Source: Fimbriimonadaceae bacterium
GTDB taxonomy: Bacteria > Armatimonadota > Fimbriimonadia > Fimbriimonadales > Fimbriimonadaceae
Direction of reading: 5' to 3'
Length of the DNA stretch: 45,130 nucleotides
Assembly (NCBI GenBank): GCA_019638795.1
Contig: JAHBTB010000015.1
Coordinates: forward strand, 1-45,130
Made by a program: the position numbers and the translations under genes. How positions within the stretch are numbered: position 1 is the first letter of the stretch; each line of letters opens with the position of its first letter. Below, piece by piece: positions 34,108 to 44,210 of the stretch. Below the pieces are notes generated by a model. That model saw nothing but the letters and a program-made list of their open reading frames with translations. It did not search any database and had not been told where the DNA came from.

Positions 34108-34165
34108 ATCTGAAGAATACATCGGTCGGTTGTCATGACAATAGGATCAGTCCGAGTCATGTGGG

Positions 34166-34195
34166 TGGACAATTGTCCAGGCAGGCAAGTAGAAT
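34166..34195 (+). promoter_or_regulatory. VanW-gene promoter with overlapping palindrome
   Basis: -35 TGGACA (34166-34171), 18-bp spacer, -10 TAGAAT (34190-34195). The -35 is the left half of a perfect 14-bp palindrome TGGACAATTGTCCA (34166-34179), a candidate repressor site. Transcription would start near 34202, about 8 bases before the ATG, with no Shine-Dalgarno. Confidence 0.5.
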
Positions 34196-34209
34196 TGACG
34201 TCGCCAGCC

Positions 34210-35559
34210 ATGCCGAAACCCAGCCGACTCGGCGCCGTGTCGCCTGCCCAGATCGCCTGGGTTTCTGTCCTGAGTCTCTTGTTGGCCGGTGGTGGGACGG
34301 CGGCATATCTAGGCGTCAACATGCCTGCGACAGTTTTGCCCCGCGTCACGGTGGCAAGCGTCGACCTTGGCGGAATGACGGCCCCTCAAGCGCGCGACGC
34401 GGTCGACGCTTGGTGGCAGGGCGTCGCCCAGAAACCAATGGTGGCCCGTTCTTCAGAGTTGGCCGGGCAGCCCGGGTCGTGGACTCCGCAAGAACTGGGC
34501 ATGTCGATTGACTCGGAGGCGACGGTGGCCGCCCTGCCCAAGGAGGCGTATTGGCCGCGGATGTTCCGCGAATGGCGGGGTGAACGCCCACCCAAGCGCG
34601 AGGTGAAGCCGGTGTTGCTCTTGGAAAGGGGCGGCCTCAAACCGGTGGAAGAGGCGGTCCTGAAGAACCGGAAGCCTCCGCAACCGGCCAAAGTCTCCTT
34701 CACCAATGGGACCGTCAGCAAGACTCCCGAACAGGCCGCGTATAGCCTTGACACCACCGCGGCGGTTGCGCGGTGGAAGGAGGCGGTGGTCGAAGGTTCA
34801 GATGTCGAGTTGCCTCTGAAGGCCAGCCCGAAAAAGGTGCCCGACGCCATGCTCGAACAAATCCGCACGGTGATCGGTCAGTTCACGACGCGCTTTGACG
34901 CGGGGAACACGAGCCGGTGCAGCAACATCGCCCTGGCCGCAAAGATGCTCAACGGCCGCATCCTCATGCCGGGCGAGACGTTTGGTTTCAACGACACCCT
35001 GGGCCAGCGGACCAAGGCCAAGGGGTTCAAAGAGGCCGGCGTCTACGTCAGCGGTAGGCACGACATCGACGTCGGCGGAGGCATCTGTCAAGTCAGCACG
35101 ACACTCTATAACTCGGTGCTCCAGGCTGGGCTCAAGGTCGCCCTCCGTTCGTCGCACTCGCTTCCCGTCGCCTATGTGCCTCTCGGCCAAGACGCGACGG
35201 TGAGTTTTCCCGAACCCGACTTCAAGTTTGTCAATGACCGCAAAGAACCGGTGGCGATCACGACTGAATACGAACCTGGCAAGTTGACGTTCCGCCTCCT
35301 GGGGGCGACCAGGGAGCCGGGCGACGTCTCCATCGTCAACAAACTCGTGCGGTCTTGGTCACGCGGGGTCAAGTACGTCCATGACCCCGACCTTCCGCCG
35401 GGAAAGGAGGTCGTGATGGAGAAGGGCGGTACCGCGCGCGAGGTCATGAGTTGGCGAGTCGTCACCCTTGACGGCAAGGTCGTGAAGCGTGAACCGCTGG
35501 GGATGAGCAGTTACACCGGCGGGCCAAGGGTCGTCCTGGTCAACAAGAAGGCCGGCTAG
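34210..35559 (+). CDS. VanW family protein
   Basis: 449 aa. N-terminal transmembrane anchor (QIAWVSVLSLLLAGGGTAAYL), then YoaR-like/peptidoglycan-binding-4-type region (GGMTAPQARDAVDAW), then the VanW domain from about residue 225 (RFDAGNTSRCSNIALAAKML, MPGETFGFNDTLGQRTKAKG, DVGGGICQVSTTLYNSVLQA). A C-terminal beta segment follows. VanW proteins are widespread envelope proteins of unknown biochemistry; the name does not mean vancomycin resistance. It is convergent with the next gene: the stops share the tetranucleotide CTAG. Confidence 0.92.
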   Translation: MPKPSRLGAVSPAQIAWVSVLSLLLAGGGTAAYLGVNMPATVLPRVTVASVDLGGMTAPQARDAVDAWWQGVAQKPMVARSSELAGQPGSWTPQELGMSIDSEATVAALPKEAYWPRMFREWRGERPPKREVKPVLLLERGGLKPVEEAVLKNRKPPQPAKVSFTNGTVSKTPEQAAYSLDTTAAVARWKEAVVEGSDVELPLKASPKKVPDAMLEQIRTVIGQFTTRFDAGNTSRCSNIALAAKMLNGRILMPGETFGFNDTLGQRTKAKGFKEAGVYVSGRHDIDVGGGICQVSTTLYNSVLQAGLKVALRSSHSLPVAYVPLGQDATVSFPEPDFKFVNDRKEPVAITTEYEPGKLTFRLLGATREPGDVSIVNKLVRSWSRGVKYVHDPDLPPGKEVVMEKGGTAREVMSWRVVTLDGKVVKREPLGMSSYTGGPRVVLVNKKAG

Positions 35560-37394
35560 CGTCCGGCCGCGAGCCTGACCAGACCCCAGTGCGTACCGAG
35601 GTAGACGACTTCGCCAAGTTGGTCGAACGGGGCGATGCTGACCCCGGGGACGACCGGGACCACCGCAAAGTCCACCTTGTACTTCGCGATGATCTCGCGC
35701 TTCAATTCGACCGGTGCCCGCGACGAGTAGATCGTGTTGACGTCCTTGAGCCGGTCCAAATAGGACGGCGTCTCACTCCAATGTCCTGCCACGGTGTAGG
35801 CCCCGGTCATCCCGCTCAGGATCGCGTTCAGATCGTTGCGAAGCGGCTTGTTGAACCGTCCGGGGACGTCACTGGGCGAGGGGATGCCCGAAGGGGCGAC
35901 CACCACTGTCCGTCCGGTCCGTTCGTTGAGGCGCCTGATGATCTCCACGACGTCGGGGCTGTAGTAGACCGAATGACGCGTCGTGCTGGCGACGTCGTTC
36001 CGGACAAACCAGACCTCCCGTTGTAGCCACATGAGTGAGGTGAGGGAGCAGACCAGAAGGGTCGCTCCGGCGAGGATGTTCCGATGGCTCCGCTCCATGC
36101 GCTCCAGGCACCGGCCCGCTTGGACGGCCGCCAATAGCCCCCATGGCACGGCCAGACCCATGAGCAGTTTTCGCTGGAAGAGGGCAGGGAAGTAGGGGGC
36201 GACCAGTCCGACGAGCGCCCAGGCCCAGAGAAAGTTCTGGAAGTCGTCATCTCCGGCCATGAACGCGACCAGGCCGCAAGCCACGGCGAACGCCACCCCA
36301 AACTGGACCGGTCCGGCAAACATCTTGCCTGGGTCGGCGCCATTGGCCCATTGGTGGAGGACAAGGACGAAAAGTGCCAGGGCGCCTGCCCGCAGCCGGT
36401 TGCGCCCGTCGTCTCGGTTAAAGGCCAAGCCAAGGACGACGAGGATCACCAGGGGCAAGATTCCGACGACGACCTGCTGAAGGGTCGGGGAATAGGTCAG
36501 CGTGTTGGCCCGTGCCTGGAACACGGGGTCCTTGGCAAGGACGTAGAGGAACCATAACGCGCTCGGCACGGCGCCGAGGCCGATAAGCGCCGCCCGACCC
36601 GCCCATGCGCGGCTGAACCGCTTGGCGGCCAATGCCGCGGCCAAAAACCCGACCAGCACAAGGGTGACGAGCAAGACGTCGTAGCTGTGGATGTTCATCA
36701 GCGCGGCGAACGCCAGCGCGCCACCGAGCACGGGTCTCATGCTGTCCCTAGCCTCGATGACCGCCCGGACGACCACCACGATCAGGCACAAGCTGACCAT
36801 GAACAAGGAGTTCGTCAGCATGGAGGGAAAGACGAACGCCTCTGGTTGCCAAACGTCAATGGGCAACCACCCGCCCGTGAGGGCGCCAACTGGTGAAGAT
36901 TTGTCCGTGATCTCTTGGCCGAAAAAGGTGAAGACCATGAACCCGACGCCACCACCCAGGCTCGCCAGGGTCAGGGCGGACTTAGCGACAAAAGTCGAGA
37001 CATTGCTCGCTTCGAGCCAGCGTCCCAAGAGCCAGACGAAGAGGAACGAGAAGCACACCCGGGCCAACGTGACCGCCCCGACGATCCCGGTGACCTTGGC
37101 TACCCACCCGAGCAAGAGGAAGTAGACGTGAAAGGTCAGGCCCGGTTGAGGGTCGGTGGTGAACCGGTTGTCAAAGAGGATTCGGCCCTCCATCGCCTGC
37201 CGCATCCAGGCGGCGTAGACCATGTGGTCGTCCACGTTGGTCTGGTGACCGAGGTACAGCGTGTTGGGTGGGGCGGTGACCAGGGCGAAGAGGGTGGGCA
37301 GGAACGCCAACACGACGGCGGCACCGGCGAACAGCAGGGTGTATCGCCGAATCAGGCCTGCCCGGTCTGGTGTCGCGTCGGTGAGGGTGTCCAC
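35556..37394 (-). CDS. Polytopic membrane protein, GT-C glycosyltransferase-like
   Basis: 612 aa from GTG 37394. About 11-13 transmembrane helices and a C-terminal soluble domain of about 150 residues. The first extracytoplasmic loop holds TNVDDHMVYAAWMRQAMEGR, whose Asp-Asp recalls the catalytic loop of GT-C enzymes. A large hydrophilic loop has GWLPIDVWQPEAFVFPSML. It could transfer sugars from a lipid-phosphate donor to an envelope acceptor; this is inferred. Last gene of a five-gene operon, 6 bp after the TPR lipoprotein. Confidence 0.75.
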   Translation of the reverse strand: MDTLTDATPDRAGLIRRYTLLFAGAAVVLAFLPTLFALVTAPPNTLYLGHQTNVDDHMVYAAWMRQAMEGRILFDNRFTTDPQPGLTFHVYFLLLGWVAKVTGIVGAVTLARVCFSFLFVWLLGRWLEASNVSTFVAKSALTLASLGGGVGFMVFTFFGQEITDKSSPVGALTGGWLPIDVWQPEAFVFPSMLTNSLFMVSLCLIVVVVRAVIEARDSMRPVLGGALAFAALMNIHSYDVLLVTLVLVGFLAAALAAKRFSRAWAGRAALIGLGAVPSALWFLYVLAKDPVFQARANTLTYSPTLQQVVVGILPLVILVVLGLAFNRDDGRNRLRAGALALFVLVLHQWANGADPGKMFAGPVQFGVAFAVACGLVAFMAGDDDFQNFLWAWALVGLVAPYFPALFQRKLLMGLAVPWGLLAAVQAGRCLERMERSHRNILAGATLLVCSLTSLMWLQREVWFVRNDVASTTRHSVYYSPDVVEIIRRLNERTGRTVVVAPSGIPSPSDVPGRFNKPLRNDLNAILSGMTGAYTVAGHWSETPSYLDRLKDVNTIYSSRAPVELKREIIAKYKVDFAVVPVVPGVSIAPFDQLGEVVYLGTHWGLVRLAAGR

Positions 37395-37400
37395 GGGTGC

Positions 37401-37853
37401 CTACTCGGGGACGGGGCGTCCCATCGACTTGTAGATGGACACGATCAAGTCGGCGTTCTCCTGGGCTTGCTTGTTGGCGGGATCGACTTTGACAACCTCC
37501 CGGTAGTACTGGAGGGCCTTCTTGTACTTGACCTTGGTGTCGACTTCCTGGCTGAACATGTAGCCGTCGGCCACGGCCATGGTCGCCTTCAGGTAGGCCG
37601 ACTTGTTGGCCTGGTCGTCCTTCTTGCCCTTTTCGTACGCTGACTTGGCCGCCTCATAAGCCTTCTCCAGCTCCTCGACCGGAATCTTGGCCGCCTCTGG
37701 CTTCGCGGCTTCGGCCGCGTCGGCCGGTTTGGTCGGCGCGACGGCCACGGGCGGGGCACTCGGGGCCGGCGTCTTGTCGACGGTCTTTGGTTGGTCACAG
37801 GCCCCGACGAGAACCGCGCAAAGCCCGCACAAGAGGAATCGTCCTTTGCGCAT
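37401..37853 (-). CDS. Lipoprotein with TPR-like helices
   Basis: 150 aa. Lipobox LVGAC with Cys19, then a Pro/Ala-rich linker (TPAPSAPPVAVAPTKPADAA), then two or three TPR-like helical hairpins (ELEKAYEAAKSAYEKGKKDD; KYKKALQYYREVVKVDPANK). It is probably an anchored scaffold that may hold the neighbouring membrane proteins together. It lies between the DUF4350 and GT-C-like genes, 30 and 6 bp away. Confidence 0.82.
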   Translation of the reverse strand: MRKGRFLLCGLCAVLVGACDQPKTVDKTPAPSAPPVAVAPTKPADAAEAAKPEAAKIPVEELEKAYEAAKSAYEKGKKDDQANKSAYLKATMAVADGYMFSQEVDTKVKYKKALQYYREVVKVDPANKQAQENADLIVSIYKSMGRPVPE

Positions 37854-37883
37854 AGACGAAATATTACGACATCTGAGACAGGC

Positions 37884-38996
37884 TTAGTTCAGGGGCTCGC
37901 GTTTCAGACGCGTGTCCTTCTCAAAGTCGGTCACTCTATCGTCTAGTTCCCGAGCCATCGGCATCGTCTTGGCGCGGGCCCGGCGGGAGTCGTCGTCGAG
38001 GTGGAGCGACGCCAGGGCTTCTGCTTTCGTCACGGCGTTGAGGAGGGGTTGAGGCATTCGCTCCCGGAGGTTGTCCCGAGTCGTGCCGTGGGGCGCCCCG
38101 ACGCCTAAGCGAAACCGCTCGTATGCGTCTTCCAGGGCGACTTCGAGGGCGAACTGCGTCTTCCCGCTCCGCCGGAGCAACTCGGCGACGGCATCGAGCA
38201 TGTCGCGGGCGCTGCGCTGTCGGACAATGTTCTGACTTGGCGAGCCAAACCGGACAGCGAGTGTCAGGACCACGACGGTCAGGAGGATGTACGCCTGGGT
38301 GCGGCCGGCGACCGCCCACGACCCCAACGTGTCGAGGGGCCCTTGGTCTTGGGCGTTGCCGATCAGTGCCTCGGGGAAGACCACGCGGGAACCTGGTTCG
38401 GCCAACATGTGGACGTATCCCAGCATCACCTCCGCGTTTTGTCCTTGGCCGATGAACCTGTTGGTCGCTCCAATGGCCTCTGGAACCGTGATCTGACGGG
38501 GAAACTTCCAGTGGGCGTCGGCAAATGCAGATCGGTAGGTTGGGCCGTAGAGCGCCGATTTCTCGTACGTCAGCTTCTTGGGTGCCATACCGGCGAGGGG
38601 GGCCAACTCCACCAGAGTCATTTGCCGAGACGCAGAGTCAAACTCATTGGAAAGACCGAGGACCAGTTCCGCGCCACCCTCGCCCAGATATGTGTCGATC
38701 GCCTGCTTGGTCATGTCATCATGCGTCCCTTGGCCGAAGATGTCCTCGGCAGTGGGCATGTCGACCGACACGACAAGGTCTCCGGCGGTGAATCTGGGCC
38801 GAGGACGCTTGTCCAAGACGACCTGATAGCCGTCCCGTCGGAGGAGTTCGGCAAACGCAGCCAGGCCACTGGGATACGTGCTCTCGATCGTCGGGGACGT
38901 CCTCGGTTCCTCCTTGGCAAAGACAAGGAGGACAAAGGACAGGCCCATGAGGGCCAGCAGGGCGAGAGCGATCTTTCCGCCGGGGAACTTCTTCAT
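37884..38996 (-). CDS. DUF4350 membrane protein
   Basis: 370 aa. N-terminal helix (KIALALLALMGLSFVLLVFA), then a DUF4350 extracytoplasmic domain (YPSGLAAFAELLRRDGYQVV; GDLVVSVDMPTAEDIFG; YLGEGGAELVLGLSNEFD), then a second helix near residue 235 (AYILLTVVVLTLAVRFG) and a cytoplasmic helical tail. DUF4350 proteins typically occur with DUF4129 and MoxR ATPases in envelope-associated clusters. It overlaps the DUF4129 gene by 4 bp (ATGA), so translation is coupled. Confidence 0.83.
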   Translation of the reverse strand: MKKFPGGKIALALLALMGLSFVLLVFAKEEPRTSPTIESTYPSGLAAFAELLRRDGYQVVLDKRPRPRFTAGDLVVSVDMPTAEDIFGQGTHDDMTKQAIDTYLGEGGAELVLGLSNEFDSASRQMTLVELAPLAGMAPKKLTYEKSALYGPTYRSAFADAHWKFPRQITVPEAIGATNRFIGQGQNAEVMLGYVHMLAEPGSRVVFPEALIGNAQDQGPLDTLGSWAVAGRTQAYILLTVVVLTLAVRFGSPSQNIVRQRSARDMLDAVAELLRRSGKTQFALEVALEDAYERFRLGVGAPHGTTRDNLRERMPQPLLNAVTKAEALASLHLDDDSRRARAKTMPMARELDDRVTDFEKDTRLKREPLN

Positions 38997-39946
38997 GCGG
39001 CAGTCTTGGTGCGGTGGGTGACCTTGATCACCTGCTCATAGAAGGCGCGGAACCAATCGACGTCGGCCTGACCACGTGTCCTCTGTCCGTACCAAATGAC
39101 GTCGAACGCGCGGGTCGCTTCGGCAAGGTCGAGCCCCTCGGGCCGCCGCGGGCTCTCTTGGTAGCGGCGGAGGTGCTCCCAGTTGGTTTCACCGCGCCGG
39201 AACCTCATGACATTGGCCTCGTCGAACCGCACCAAGCTGGCCAAATAGAGGCATCGGACGGCTTCCCGGTACTGTTTGTTGGCGGTGAGCTCTTCACTTC
39301 GCACCACCCACTCGTCTGCCGTCCGGTCTGGCTCGTCATCGTCAAGTAGCCCGCCGGCTTTGACCTTCCGGGACGACACCCAGCGGAACCTGGTCACGGC
39401 GTAGACGGCGAAGGCGAGGAGACCGCAGATGAGGACTCCCCAGACTACAGGTTGGAAATTGATCCGCCCGAACCCAGACGAAGGCAGCTCCATCCCCTTG
39501 GCGTTGCCAAAGAGCTTCTTGAGCAAGTTTTCGAACCAATCACTGATAAACCGTCCGGCTCGCTCTAGACTTTGTGACAGCCAGTTTTTCTCGTTCCGGA
39601 CCCCATTGTCGTGGTATTCGGGGCTGGACAAGATCTTTCGCGATTCGGCCTGGGGATCCCGCAAGCGGCCGCTTGCGGCCTTTTCGGCATTGATGACGTT
39701 GTCGAGTTGGACGAGGGCCTCCTTGCGGCACTCCCGCCAGGAGCGATCACCGGTGTGTTCACCCATGGACTCGTGGGGTGACCAGTCACCCCCAAGCGTC
39801 TCGTTCAGTTCGTTGACAAGGCTCCGGTACCCCACCTCAGAATCGACCGCCGCCACCTTGTCCCGGAGCGTGTTCGGGCTTGCCGTGACGAGGGCGGCGA
39901 GCCAAAGGCAAGCGCTAAGAAAGAAGAATCGTGCTGCGGTCTGCAT
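38993..39946 (-). CDS. DUF4129 membrane protein
   Basis: 317 aa. Signal peptide, a helical extracytoplasmic region (SEVGYRSLVNELNETLGGDW, LSQSLERAGRFISDWFENLL), one transmembrane helix (VVWGVLICGLLAFAVYAV) near residue 170, then the C-terminal DUF4129 domain (ELTANKQYREAVRCLYLASL; FRRGETNWEHLRRYQESP; AFDVIWYGQRTRGQADVDWF). The domain recurs with MoxR/DUF58 genes. It overlaps its neighbours by 32 and 4 bp. Function is unknown, probably part of an envelope complex. Confidence 0.85.
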   Translation of the reverse strand: MQTAARFFFLSACLWLAALVTASPNTLRDKVAAVDSEVGYRSLVNELNETLGGDWSPHESMGEHTGDRSWRECRKEALVQLDNVINAEKAASGRLRDPQAESRKILSSPEYHDNGVRNEKNWLSQSLERAGRFISDWFENLLKKLFGNAKGMELPSSGFGRINFQPVVWGVLICGLLAFAVYAVTRFRWVSSRKVKAGGLLDDDEPDRTADEWVVRSEELTANKQYREAVRCLYLASLVRFDEANVMRFRRGETNWEHLRRYQESPRRPEGLDLAEATRAFDVIWYGQRTRGQADVDWFRAFYEQVIKVTHRTKTAA

Positions 39947-40949
39947 TCTTGATGTCCTCGGCCAATGTCCTGATGTCGAAAGCTTCTATCCGTACCCTAC
40001 GGTCAAAGTATAAGACGGTTGTGGTGGTCGCGTAGAGAGGTACGGCGAGCCAGCAGGTGAAGAACGCCGGCAACATCTCGATCATCGTCTTCATCAGCTG
40101 TCCGCCGGTCCCCGAAAATGAGAGGCCTTGGTAGAACGGTGTGGCCGCGACCAAAGAGACGAGGATTGAAAAGCCAGCAAAGAGGGAGACGCCGACCAAG
40201 AAGATGATCAGCCAGACGATCAGCAGCGACGAACCTGCCGCACCGTGAAACGGATAGCTCTTCATGAGGAGGCGGCTCCTCTGTCGGGCGGCCTTTCCCT
40301 TGACGCCCTCAAACACCATGGCGGTGGGGGCAAGGGCATATGAGTACAGGGCCCACGGCACGGCGACGAGTGAGCAAAGAAAGGCGATGACGGCCAAAAA
40401 GCCCGACAACAGGGCCGCCTCGTCACCCGCCCGCTGGCCCATGACGGCACTCACCGTCATAAAGGCGACCCCCGCGAGCACGGGCCCGGCGGCACGCAGA
40501 GTGATGTCACCCATGAGGCGCATCATCGACGGTGTGGATTTCATGGCCAACGAGGCGGCGGCTTTCTCGTCCGGCGGGTCACCCATCACGAAGTCAGCGG
40601 CCAAGCGGCCGCACACGGCCATGGTGTAGCCCACCCCGAGGACAAAGAGCGGGAGGGAGACCAGCAGGGCCACGGTCAGTCCGACGACGACCTCGCCGAC
40701 CTGACCGGCGAGCTGGTCGGTCTTGGTCTGGAAGATCAAGGGGAGGACGAAGGCATAGACCTGCACGATCGCGGCGTAGCAGAACGCCATCGGGACAAGG
40801 CTTTGCCGGAGCATCGGGCCGGCCAGGTTCTGGTAGACGCGGGTCGCGACGTCGACGACCTCGCTGTCACGCATCGGCTTCAACAGCCGGCGCTTGTCAA
40901 TCGACCTCATTCGGGCCTGGAACAGGTCAAAGGGTGTCTGGGCCGCCAT
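39915..40949 (-). CDS. Polytopic membrane protein
   Basis: 344 aa with about six transmembrane helices (among them VPMAFCYAAIVQVYAFVLPL, VVVGLTVALLVSLPLFVLGV, LIVWLIIFLVGVSLFAGFSI). The N-terminal 50 residues are cytoplasmic and basic. It resembles the glycerophosphoryl-diester-like or DUF4013-type membrane partners that often accompany DUF4129 genes, but I cannot assign it. First gene of the five-gene operon; it overlaps the DUF4129 gene by 32 bp and is divergent from the LolA-like gene. Confidence 0.75.
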   Translation of the reverse strand: MAAQTPFDLFQARMRSIDKRRLLKPMRDSEVVDVATRVYQNLAGPMLRQSLVPMAFCYAAIVQVYAFVLPLIFQTKTDQLAGQVGEVVVGLTVALLVSLPLFVLGVGYTMAVCGRLAADFVMGDPPDEKAAASLAMKSTPSMMRLMGDITLRAAGPVLAGVAFMTVSAVMGQRAGDEAALLSGFLAVIAFLCSLVAVPWALYSYALAPTAMVFEGVKGKAARQRSRLLMKSYPFHGAAGSSLLIVWLIIFLVGVSLFAGFSILVSLVAATPFYQGLSFSGTGGQLMKTMIEMLPAFFTCWLAVPLYATTTTVLYFDRRVRIEAFDIRTLAEDIKNADRSTILLS

Positions 40950-41055
40950 GCCTCGTGAACAATTGTACGCGCCGGACTCCGCAAAGGTTGAGGGAAACTT
41001 GGCCTACCCAGCGCAAAGGGCGGCCGTGCCGTCCGTCTATAGGGAAGCGACCACC

Positions 41056-41769
41056 ATGACGACCGCATTGACCGCCGCAGTCAGCCTCATCCTGGGACAG
41101 AGCCACTCGATCTACGACTACGTCCAGCCCAACCTGAAGGACGTTTCTTTCACCGCCAAGGTCGGCGACGCGAACCAAAAGGAGCTTGCTAAGATCAACG
41201 AGGACTTTGCCAAGTCTTATCGGATCAAGTCGACCCTCGTCCGCCTGAAAGAGCCGATGAAGCTGCGGGTCGAATCGGAGCTAGACCCTGACAACAAGAT
41301 CGTCATGGTGCTGAACGGCGCCACGCAGTCGTACCGCTACCCGCGGGCCGGGCTGGGGGGCAAGCAAAACTTGTCGCGGTCGCCCGGTAAACGGCAGACG
41401 TTCCTGGACTTCGGCCTCCTGACGCCCGGTTTGTTCAAGGACTTCTATGTCCCGCACTTCGTGAGGATGGACCGGGATTCTGGGCTCGCCGTCTTTGACC
41501 TGACATTCCCGAAGGCCCTCGACGACACGTCGCGCCAGCGTGTCTTCATCGACCCGTCGAAGCATTACATTGTCAAGAGGGAGTGGTACGCCCAAGAAGG
41601 CAACCTCCGGGCCGTCTTCCACTATGACAAGCCGGTGCAGTCTGGTGGCGTGTGGATACCCACCAAGACCACGGTCTACAACGCCGAGCGTAAGGTGGCG
41701 GGAGTGACCAACTATTCCGGCGTCAGGGCCAACAGCGGGTTGAGCGAAGACCTGTTCCGCATCGGCTGA
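41056..41769 (+). CDS. LolA-like secreted protein
   Basis: 237 aa. Short signal peptide (MTTALTAAVSLILG), then a half-barrel of long beta strands resembling outer-membrane lipoprotein-sorting (LolA/DUF-type) proteins: KDVSFTAKVGDANQKELAKI, LKEPMKLRVESELDPDNKI, HYIVKREWYAQEGNLRAVFH and SGGVWIPTKTTVYNAERKV. LolA relatives carry acyl chains or lipids across the periplasm. The ATG at 41056 is chosen because the upstream frame has no coding character. AGGGA lies 10 bp before. Confidence 0.75.
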   Translation: MTTALTAAVSLILGQSHSIYDYVQPNLKDVSFTAKVGDANQKELAKINEDFAKSYRIKSTLVRLKEPMKLRVESELDPDNKIVMVLNGATQSYRYPRAGLGGKQNLSRSPGKRQTFLDFGLLTPGLFKDFYVPHFVRMDRDSGLAVFDLTFPKALDDTSRQRVFIDPSKHYIVKREWYAQEGNLRAVFHYDKPVQSGGVWIPTKTTVYNAERKVAGVTNYSGVRANSGLSEDLFRIG

Positions 41770-41858
41770 CCGTACGATTCCGGACATTGGCGGTCGGATT
41801 CCTCCTGGAGCCTTGCCGCCACGGAGCCGTCGGCCTAGTCAACCGTCACAATAGCACC

Positions 41859-44210
41859 ATGCCCGTGATGTGGCTTGCCCTGGCCGTCCTTGAAGACCAC
41901 GAACTCAAGGCCGGTGACGTCCTATCAAAATCGACCAACGTTGTGCGCCGGTCATATGACTTCGCCAACGACGACGAGACGGGCCGGACATCGGCCGTCA
42001 CCGTCAAGGGAAAGGGGATCGTCATCGATTTCCAAGGTGCCACCCTGCGCGGCACCCCCGCGACGACCCCTCCGGACAAGCGCCTCGGCACCGCCCTCAT
42101 CGTGGAAGGTGAGGACATAACCGTCAAGAACCTCAACGTCCGCGGCTACAAGCTTGGCCTCCTGGCGCGGCAGGTGAAGGGCCTCAAACTCATCAACTGC
42201 GACTTCTCCTACAACTGGAAGCAGCACCTGGGCTCGACGCTGGAGCGAGAGGACGAATCCGACTGGATGAGTTACCACCACAACGAAGCCAACGAGTGGT
42301 TCCGTTATGGGGCGGGCGCTTACCTTGACCGGGTCACCGATTTCGAGGTCAAAGGGTGCACCGCGGTCGGTGGGCAGTGCGGCCTGATGATGACCAAGTG
42401 CGAAAGGGGGCTTGTCTGGAACAACGACTTCAGCTTCCTCAGCGGATTGGGCGTCGGCATGTACCGGACAAGCCATGTCAAGGTCATGCACAACAAGATC
42501 GATTGGTGTGTGCGCGGCTACAGCCACGGTGTCTATAACCGCGGGCAAGACTCGGCCGGCATTCTGGTTTTCGAGCAGTGCATGGACAACACCTTTGCTT
42601 ACAACTCGGTGACCCATGGCGGCGACGGCTTCTTCCTGTGGGCTGGTCAGACGACGATGGACACCGGCAAGGGAGGGTGCAACAACAACCTCCTCTATGG
42701 CAACGACTTCAGCCATGCCCCGACGAACGGCATCGAGGCGACGTTCAGCCAGAACGCCTTCGTCAACAACCTTGTCCTTGAGTGCTGGCACGGAGTCTGG
42801 GGCGGCTACAGCTATGACACACCTGTCCTGGGCAACTACTTCGGCATGAACGAGGTGGGGGTGGCGATCGAGCATGGCCAGGCGAACCATGTCGTCGGCA
42901 ACGTCTTCGACCGAGACGCCAAGGCCCTTGACATCTGGAGCAACCCGAGCCAAGACCCGAACTGGGGCTATCCGAAGGGTCATGACACCCGGAGCCGGGA
43001 CTACGTGGTGACCGACAACGAGTTTAGGCAGGTCAGCGACACCGTCGCCGCAGTGCGGAGGACAAGCGGCTTTGACTTCCGGGCGAACAAGGTTCTTTTG
43101 TGCAAGCGTGTCTTCACTTTGGGCGAGTTGGCGACCGGGGTGGTCGCCAAGTCCAACATCGTGCAGAGCTACGGCACCGAAGAAGCCTGGCCCGCCGGGA
43201 GCAAAGACAACCTGTGGCGGCAGATCAACACGATCAAGGCCCCTGAATGGAAGTCGGCGAACAAGGACGACCTCTCGCTCCCGACCGCTACCTACCTGGC
43301 CCAATTCAAGACAAATTGGTCGCCAGGAATCGGCGGACGGGCGACGACGGCGGTCAGCGACGCCGTGCTCAAGCAGGTCTTGGCCAAGCGTGTGCCGCCG
43401 TTGAAGGGGGGGATGGACCCCTTCCTTCCGGCCGGCACGTTGCGGGGCCGACGCTACATCCTCGTCGACGAGTGGGGTCCGTATGATTTCAAGTCGCCGC
43501 TGCTGTGGCCTCGCAAGCAGACGACCGACGCCGATGGACGACGGGTCGTCGAGTTCGAGGTCCTCGGGCCGAAGGGCACTTGGACGGTAGCCCAGGACGA
43601 CGGGGTCGCCGCCGTCTCCGCCAAATCGGGGCAGGTGCCTGGCGTCCTGACCGCAACACTCGCCCCGGGCAAAGCCACGATGGTCGATTTGAAGCTGACC
43701 TACACAGGAGGGGCGACCGTCGACTATCGGGGTGTGGCCCGTGACAAGGGGGAGCCGGTCACCTTTGGTTACAAGGCGTTCTTCATGCCTATCGACTGGG
43801 ACGTCAAGTTCTACGACTTTGACCACGACACGCAGGACCCCCGGACCCACATGGACGGGTTCAACCACGCCGTTTCCGGAACTCCGGTCTACGAAATGAA
43901 GACCCAGAAGCTCCTTTTGTCCGGTGGACGCCGCCCGGGGCCCGGGCAGAGGGGGGTCTATTGGACGACGTGGGCGGTCGGTACGGTCGAGGTGCCCGCG
44001 GGTGACTACGAGATCAAGGTGACGAGTGACGACGGCGTGAGGGTCTGGGTCGACGGGAAGCTCGTCATCGACAACTGGACCTACCATGCCCCGACACTCG
44101 ACAAGGCGGACCTCAAACTCGGGCCAGGCAAGCACAAGATCGAGGTCCGGCACTTCCAACTGGACGGGTACGGAACGTTGCAGGTGGATTTGCAACCCGC
44201 CGCGAATTGA
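41859..44210 (+). CDS. Right-handed beta-helix protein with PA14-like domain
   Basis: 783 aa. Residues about 50-440 are a parallel beta-helix of repeating strands (GKGIVIDFQGATLRG, DITVKNLNVRGYKLGL, NTFAYNSVTHGGDGFFLWAG, AFVNNLVLECWHGVWGGYSY), as in pectate-lyase-like/NosD proteins. After a linker, a C-terminal PA14-like sugar-binding domain (VEVPAGDYEIKVTSDDGVRV, DGKLVIDNWTYHAPTLDKAD, GPGKHKIEVRHFQLDGYG) closes the chain. A signal peptide is only weakly visible, yet the composition suggests export. It may bind or degrade polysaccharide. It ends at a strong hairpin. Confidence 0.82.
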   Translation: MPVMWLALAVLEDHELKAGDVLSKSTNVVRRSYDFANDDETGRTSAVTVKGKGIVIDFQGATLRGTPATTPPDKRLGTALIVEGEDITVKNLNVRGYKLGLLARQVKGLKLINCDFSYNWKQHLGSTLEREDESDWMSYHHNEANEWFRYGAGAYLDRVTDFEVKGCTAVGGQCGLMMTKCERGLVWNNDFSFLSGLGVGMYRTSHVKVMHNKIDWCVRGYSHGVYNRGQDSAGILVFEQCMDNTFAYNSVTHGGDGFFLWAGQTTMDTGKGGCNNNLLYGNDFSHAPTNGIEATFSQNAFVNNLVLECWHGVWGGYSYDTPVLGNYFGMNEVGVAIEHGQANHVVGNVFDRDAKALDIWSNPSQDPNWGYPKGHDTRSRDYVVTDNEFRQVSDTVAAVRRTSGFDFRANKVLLCKRVFTLGELATGVVAKSNIVQSYGTEEAWPAGSKDNLWRQINTIKAPEWKSANKDDLSLPTATYLAQFKTNWSPGIGGRATTAVSDAVLKQVLAKRVPPLKGGMDPFLPAGTLRGRRYILVDEWGPYDFKSPLLWPRKQTTDADGRRVVEFEVLGPKGTWTVAQDDGVAAVSAKSGQVPGVLTATLAPGKATMVDLKLTYTGGATVDYRGVARDKGEPVTFGYKAFFMPIDWDVKFYDFDHDTQDPRTHMDGFNHAVSGTPVYEMKTQKLLLSGGRRPGPGQRGVYWTTWAVGTVEVPAGDYEIKVTSDDGVRVWVDGKLVIDNWTYHAPTLDKADLKLGPGKHKIEVRHFQLDGYGTLQVDLQPAAN

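Follow-up and report, generated by a model that had tools for sequence, protein, structure and literature searches.

A five-gene envelope run in a Fimbriimonadaceae genome probably combines two units, the membrane part of a MoxR/DUF58 system scattered over the genome and a self-standing TPR-GT-C pair

Couples of a MoxR ATPase and a VWA protein are ATP-driven and act on membrane protein complexes; in NorQ/NorD, the VWA protein NorD plugs the ring formed by the MoxR protein NorQ (PMC9976466). For archaea, DUF4350 (arCOG01314) together with MoxR and a VWA protein was predicted to form a secretion or membrane-remodeling complex (Makarova et al. 2015, PMC5898192). The bacterial locus described below resembles the archaeal system in having a membrane-anchored DUF4350 protein with an extracytoplasmic domain that is tied to a MoxR AAA+ ATPase and a VWA domain. 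It differs in that the ATPase and VWA genes lie on other contigs, the VWA domain sits inside a DUF58 protein, and the partners are a DUF4129 protein and a six-helix membrane protein in place of S-layer or Ig-like proteins (PMC5898192). Like NorQ/NorD and RavA/ViaA, the system would combine a MoxR ATPase with a VWA partner acting on membrane complexes, but here that partner is a DUF58 protein.

The window, by which we mean the whole 45,130-nucleotide stretch analyzed (G000:C15:1-45130), comes from a genome of 2.70 Mb in 18 contigs that is 99% complete. Five open reading frames follow one another on its minus strand. The first three, which we call unit A or the trio, encode a six-helix membrane protein (TM344; 344 aa, 39915-40949), a DUF4129 protein (317 aa, 38993-39946), and a diverged DUF4350 protein (370 aa, 37884-38996). 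The remaining two, unit B or the pair, encode a TPR-like exported protein that is a probable lipoprotein here (150 aa, 37401-37853) and a predicted integral membrane glycosyltransferase of the GT-C fold (612 aa, 35556-37394). By open reading frame coordinates, the genes overlap by 32 and 4 bp and are spaced by gaps of 30 and 6 bp. The initial annotation had given the coordinates of the run, this order, and these overlaps and gaps exactly, and its remark that the run lacks MoxR and DUF58 agrees with our finding that neither is among the five open reading frames. Most loci of family f1 have the run flanked as it is in the window, by a divergent LolA-like gene upstream (40894-41769) and a convergent gene for a VanW/G5 protein downstream (34135-35559); past the latter comes a BCAT-like gene. 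An 807-aa protein encoded at 41787-44210 combines a NosD-like beta-helix with a PA14 domain at its C terminus.

We examined the proteins of unit A one at a time. DUF4129 (PF13559) was matched by residues 233-303 of the 317-aa protein (E value of 1.1e-7, 32.2 bits against a Pfam cut-off of 24.8). The match of the window's 370-aa protein to DUF4350 (PF14258) fell below threshold (E value of 0.05, 14.3 bits against 30.4). However, 47 of 50 aligned rows of its family match PF14258 at an E value of 0.01 or lower (best, 7.7e-21), so the name given in the initial annotation is right despite the weak match of this member. G44 and N179 are invariant in all 50 rows. The AlphaFold2 (AF2) model of the first protein confidently shows six long helices (pLDDT, 91.8), as had been claimed for it. 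Its sole Pfam match in the window copy, EMP70, was under the cut-off and was not adopted as its identity. Among 44 aligned relatives, 5 match GPDPase_memb (PF10110; best, 2.5e-11) and 2 match DUF975. In structural comparison the model reached Z scores of 15.8 with PNS1, 13.8 with CTL1, and 11.6 with CysZ (next row, 5.4), while the best Foldseek E value was weak, at 0.055. Residues E214, R224, and E322 are invariant in the 44 rows. The model suggests, as a lead only, a small-molecule- or lipid-facing membrane protein of the GPDPase_memb/DUF975/CysZ-like kind. The likeness to PNS1 and CTL1, which are eukaryotic choline-transporter-like proteins, may reflect a wider relation of that group.

In unit B, the evidence for the second protein is structural. 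The 612-aa protein had no Pfam match, to any glycosyltransferase family or otherwise, and a sequence-profile search of the PDB returned nothing for it (for DUF4350, the same search gave chance-level rows only). Its AF2 model (pLDDT, 95.1; pTM, 0.94) matched 13 PDB chains by Foldseek at an E value of 0.001 or lower, all of them GT-C enzymes (oligosaccharyltransferases, AftA, and DPY19). Z scores were 20.1 for STT3/OST, 18.9 for AglB, 17.5 for PglB, 16.2 for ArnT, and 16.1 for AftA, over about 435 to 465 residues. The putative GT-C assignment made earlier is thus borne out by structure prediction, with Z up to 20, and by its predicted fold the protein is a GT-C transferase. Like STT3/PglB/AglB, ArnT, and AftA, with which its predicted fold scores Z of 16 to 20, it has an acidic pair after the first helix; D55 and D56, in the first external loop, are invariant in 44 of 44 rows. 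A WWDYG-type motif in the C-terminal domain marks oligosaccharyltransferases such as STT3, PglB, and AglB. Unlike these, the window protein, read by eye, has no WW pair and hence no WWD or WWDYG motif, and its C-terminal domain instead holds HWSETP (H538-P543), invariant in the 44 rows. For the 150-aa protein, the match to TPR is a weak one (a single repeat with an E value of 0.002, under the Pfam cut-off). The window copy does have the lipobox-like start expected of the "TPR lipoprotein" first proposed, but a crude lipobox pattern fits just 18 of 82 rows of its relatives, so that a conserved lipoprotein is not what the family shows.

We then looked at how well the run is conserved. A related-locus search with the DUF4350 protein alone returned no relative. 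A phylum-wide search by this one protein gave relatives in 115 of 291 genomes, which is an underestimate (it missed G045, which holds DUF4350 beside MoxR). Neighborhoods of the DUF4350 loci were read, with the window left out of the f1 and f2 counts. The trio is near-constant across families f1 to f5; DUF4129 adjoins DUF4350 in 71/72 f1, 5/5 f2, 17/17 f3, 1/1 f4, and 1/1 f5 loci. An apparent DUF4129-DUF4350 fusion in locus L078 was rejected, being merely an open frame in which the two matches sit in different frames. DUF4350 is followed by the TPR gene in 56/72 f1 and 5/5 f2 loci but in none of the f3 (0/17), f4 (0/1), or f5 (0/1) loci. In 61 of the 77 other f1 and f2 trio loci, the GT-C gene immediately follows the TPR gene. 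Besides the window, 51 of 72 f1 loci and all 5 f2 loci, or 56 of 77, keep the whole order of five genes, and three of the misses are loci cut by contig ends. Linkage in relatives, the lack of which would have spoken against the initial annotation, is therefore conserved beyond what chance would give. In f3 loci where two genes of 270 aa and of 639 aa with 10 helices come after DUF4350, these were considered as a diverged TPR-GT-C pair and rejected, since in G163, the locus examined with Pfam, they are an NTP transferase and an amino-acid permease.

This tight order invites the reading that the five proteins form one complex, a variant glycosylation or export machine with the TPR protein and the GT-C enzyme in the roles of MoxR and DUF58. 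The GT-C fold of the 612-aa protein and a probable co-transcription, with gaps of at most 30 bp, fit such a machine as well. However, the two units come apart. In ten genomes that hold both (G134, G135, G137, G145, G146, G083, G078, G107, G109, and G110), trio and pair lie at separate places, and the TPR-GT-C pair itself is intact in all ten. Most GT-C genes distant from the trio have the TPR gene beside them. The pair also occurs alone, with DUF4350 missing, in G100, G106, G139, G141, G148, G067, G069, and G070; in G149, likewise without DUF4350, no TPR gene was detected. G106 keeps LolA, TPR, GT-C, VanW, and BCAT in their usual order with just the trio missing, and it is also without the 436-aa DUF58 described below. 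GT-C copies away from the trio in f1 and f2 retain the acidic pair (19/19) and HWSETP (18/19). Conversely, GT-C was found in 0 of 18 f3 genomes, of which 17 hold DUF4350. Each of the two units thus occurs in the absence of the other, which makes TPR-GT-C an independent two-gene unit and probably not part of the MoxR/DUF58 system.

What, then, does DUF4350 usually travel with? Outside the order (Fimbriimonadales), MoxR lies directly downstream of DUF4350 in 17 of 18 loci, and the remaining locus ends at a contig edge. DUF58 comes after MoxR in 7 of those 17. We also approached the question from the other side with 20 MoxR loci, selected by hand such that no copy next to a strong DUF58 match was included; 10 of these hold DUF4350, in every case directly upstream of MoxR. 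For this phylum, the general statement that DUF4129/DUF4350 normally travel with MoxR, and often with DUF58, is thus supported by the neighborhoods. MoxR was not directly downstream of DUF4350 in the window or in any parsed locus of f1, f2, f3, or f4. G177 (f5) is the sole genome of the order in which DUF4350 and MoxR are still adjacent, with DUF58 on another contig, and in G176 (f4) the trio and MoxR share a contig but are some 35 kb apart. The outgroup loci and these two genomes imply that the ancestral run probably comprised the six-helix protein, DUF4129, DUF4350, MoxR, and often DUF58. With the canonical operon, the window shares adjacent DUF4129 and DUF4350 genes and a multi-helix membrane gene upstream of them. 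Its trio is thus probably the membrane half of this MoxR/DUF58 system, and because MoxR is not adjacent, we do not file it as a canonical operon.

Counterparts of the missing half are present in the same genome. It encodes two MoxRs and two DUF58 proteins, with three weaker AAA matches under the family cut-off. One gene of each kind belongs to a MoxR-DUF58-transglutaminase cluster at G000:C4:141-146 kb. The others stand singly on separate contigs, a MoxR at G000:C6:176389 and a 436-aa DUF58 at G000:C2:235984-237288, which has a VWA_2 match over the cut-off. NorD and ViaA, for their part, presumably belong to VWA families other than DUF58. Simple motif patterns matched neither the Walker A and B motifs nor MIDAS; by eye, the MoxR has GVPGLAKT and LLADE, and DxSxS was not seen in the solitary DUF58.

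We built trees of 54 MoxR and 44 DUF58 rows. The solitary MoxRs of f1 and f2, together with the f4 copy and the DUF4350-linked f5 MoxR, form a starred clade (95/93). A wider starred group (97/89) takes in all 14 DUF4350-linked MoxRs and excludes the transglutaminase and Bat types. The solitary 436-aa DUF58s cluster with linked DUF58s at 83/88, a node that is not starred, and the transglutaminase-type (100/100) and Bat-type (100/99) DUF58 clades stand apart. The cluster on contig 4 resembles the system in having MoxR, DUF58, and a DUF4129 domain, the last at the end of its final gene, but its MoxR and DUF58 belong to a separate paralogous clade in both trees, and we found no DUF4350 in it. Given their placement with DUF4350-linked copies, the solitary MoxR and DUF58 are best read from their sequences as displaced partners and not as unrelated paralogues. 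The initial annotation had named a clearly co-regulated MoxR/DUF58 pair elsewhere in the genome as evidence against itself; both proteins are there, although as two separate single genes and not as a pair.

If the solitary genes are displaced partners, they might be expected to follow DUF4350 in its gains and losses. We scored 113 genomes of the order; most are metagenome-assembled, so that a gene may seem absent through a gap in the assembly. Of the 113, 97 hold DUF4350 and 98 hold the 436-aa DUF58. DUF4350 was scored absent in G141, G147, and G148, where weak matches (E values of 0.001 to 0.005) fell in 553- to 715-aa frames, and DUF58 was scored absent in G100 and G140 despite weak matches (2e-12 and 6e-11); G076 was scored present on an 81-aa open frame (2e-16). 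Both genes occur in 95 genomes, neither in 13, DUF4350 only in 2, and DUF58 only in 3 (phi of 0.81). Thus, 108 of 113 genomes are concordant, though the genes are unlinked. Completeness in the five discordant genomes runs from 65 to 96% (77 and 89% for DUF4350 only; 68, 96, and 65% for DUF58 only). All three DUF58-only genomes are also without GT-C; the two from f1 fit a missing stretch of assembly, and the third is from f3, a family with no GT-C in any genome. For DUF4350 and GT-C, by comparison, both occur in 79 genomes, DUF4350 only in 18 (17 of them f3), GT-C only in 10, and neither in 6 (phi of 0.16), so that GT-C is retained in 10 of the 16 genomes without DUF4350.

The GT-C gene tree (83 rows) served in place of a species tree; it leaves out G087 and G177 (under 400 aa), G025 (outside the order), and G140 (a GT-C fragment, no DUF4350). 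On this tree, DUF4350 changes 6 times, 4 of them forced by starred branches, and DUF58 changes 7 times. In the starred independent pairs, DUF58 goes with DUF4350 in 4 of 4, too few for significance (sign test, p of 0.125). A branch-overlap figure of 3e-10 assumes that parsimony changes on a gene tree are independent, and we do not use it as an argument. MoxR co-loss was examined by place in two genomes without DUF4350. G100, which is 99% complete in two contigs, carries two MoxRs and G140 carries one, and all of them lie in other clusters; hence, no solitary MoxR is left in either.

These data bear on two alternatives. The first is that unit A works alone, with no ATPase, and that MoxR and DUF58 acquired different roles once the operon had come apart. 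No physical linkage is left in f1 to f4, and MoxR now adjoins a GT4 glycosyltransferase gene, both of which would suit such a history. Yet DUF4350 and the 436-aa DUF58 are jointly absent in 13 genomes, by at least four independent events according to the starred branches, and we consider it very improbable that the trio acts by itself. The second is the five-protein complex introduced above. The genome still holds orthologues of MoxR and DUF58, DUF58 is lost with DUF4350, and GT-C does not follow DUF4350, which together with the separation of the units makes a single complex very unlikely. The statement that MoxR and DUF58 are replaced here therefore holds for gene order, with TPR and GT-C succeeding the trio in a conserved arrangement, but is not supported as the description of a variant complex.

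We put a probability of roughly 0.8 on the reading of two adjacent units, one being the membrane half of a MoxR/DUF58 system whose genes are dispersed and the other an independent TPR-GT-C pair. Counting against it are the metagenome-assembled genomes behind most absences, the non-significant sign test, and the two genomes to which the MoxR check extends. A further point is that 56 of 77 loci keep the units joined; this implies selection of some kind for co-expression, which the reading leaves unexplained. By analogy with the described systems, unit A would be the membrane half of a MoxR/DUF58-DUF4129-DUF4350 envelope system, on which the cytoplasmic AAA+ ATPase MoxR and the VWA-bearing DUF58, supplied from other contigs, most likely act in trans; supply in trans is the most economical account of the cytoplasmic pair. 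As in NorQ/NorD, the MoxR ring would spend ATP, via the VWA protein, to assemble or remodel the membrane complex, in whichever direction that remodeling may run. Unit B would separately, and probably at the outer face of the inner membrane, provide an acceptor with sugar taken from a polyprenyl-phosphate donor, a kind of donor suggested by the superfamily to which the GT-C fold belongs, with whatever part the TPR protein might play.

A link between unit A and sugars may nevertheless be real, but through GT4, a different enzyme than GT-C. At G000:C6:176 kb (L062:6261-8234), the solitary MoxR gene is directly followed by the GT4 gene mentioned above. The same neighbor was found in 12 of the 16 genomes of the order examined, that is, in the window's genome and 11 of 15 others, and in family f13, DUF4350, MoxR, and GT4 are contiguous in 5 of 5 genomes examined. 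For the glycosylation idea of the initial annotation, this is the strongest support that is left. From this, GT4 could be unit A's real glycosylation partner, with the system assembling or regulating an envelope glycan enzyme and GT-C later acting on the same glycan and for that reason drawn into the run. GT4 is, however, missing after MoxR in 4 of the 16, and in many outgroup loci the place next to MoxR is taken by DUF58 or another gene. A small GT4 tree does not settle the matter either, as the GT4s of f13 and of the order were not separable as orthologues or otherwise. We regard a GT4 partnership as doubtful, and it overlaps with the two-unit reading as an addition to it. In a broader and still less probable form, the DUF4350/DUF4129 system might use ATP to assemble or regulate the machinery of envelope glycosylation. 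MoxR would then act through DUF58 on both the trio and GT4, and GT-C would have been recruited into the trio transcript in two families to work on the same glycan.

In the open-licence literature that we searched, there was little experimental work on DUF4350, DUF4129, or DUF58, and these proteins recur across the phylum. A broken-up operon in which DUF58 still tracks DUF4350 separates true partners from passengers. Here, the evidence points to MoxR and DUF58 as the partners of the trio, against the adjacent TPR and GT-C proteins. Taken together, the locus serves as a warning, since operon membership alone would give the wrong complex.
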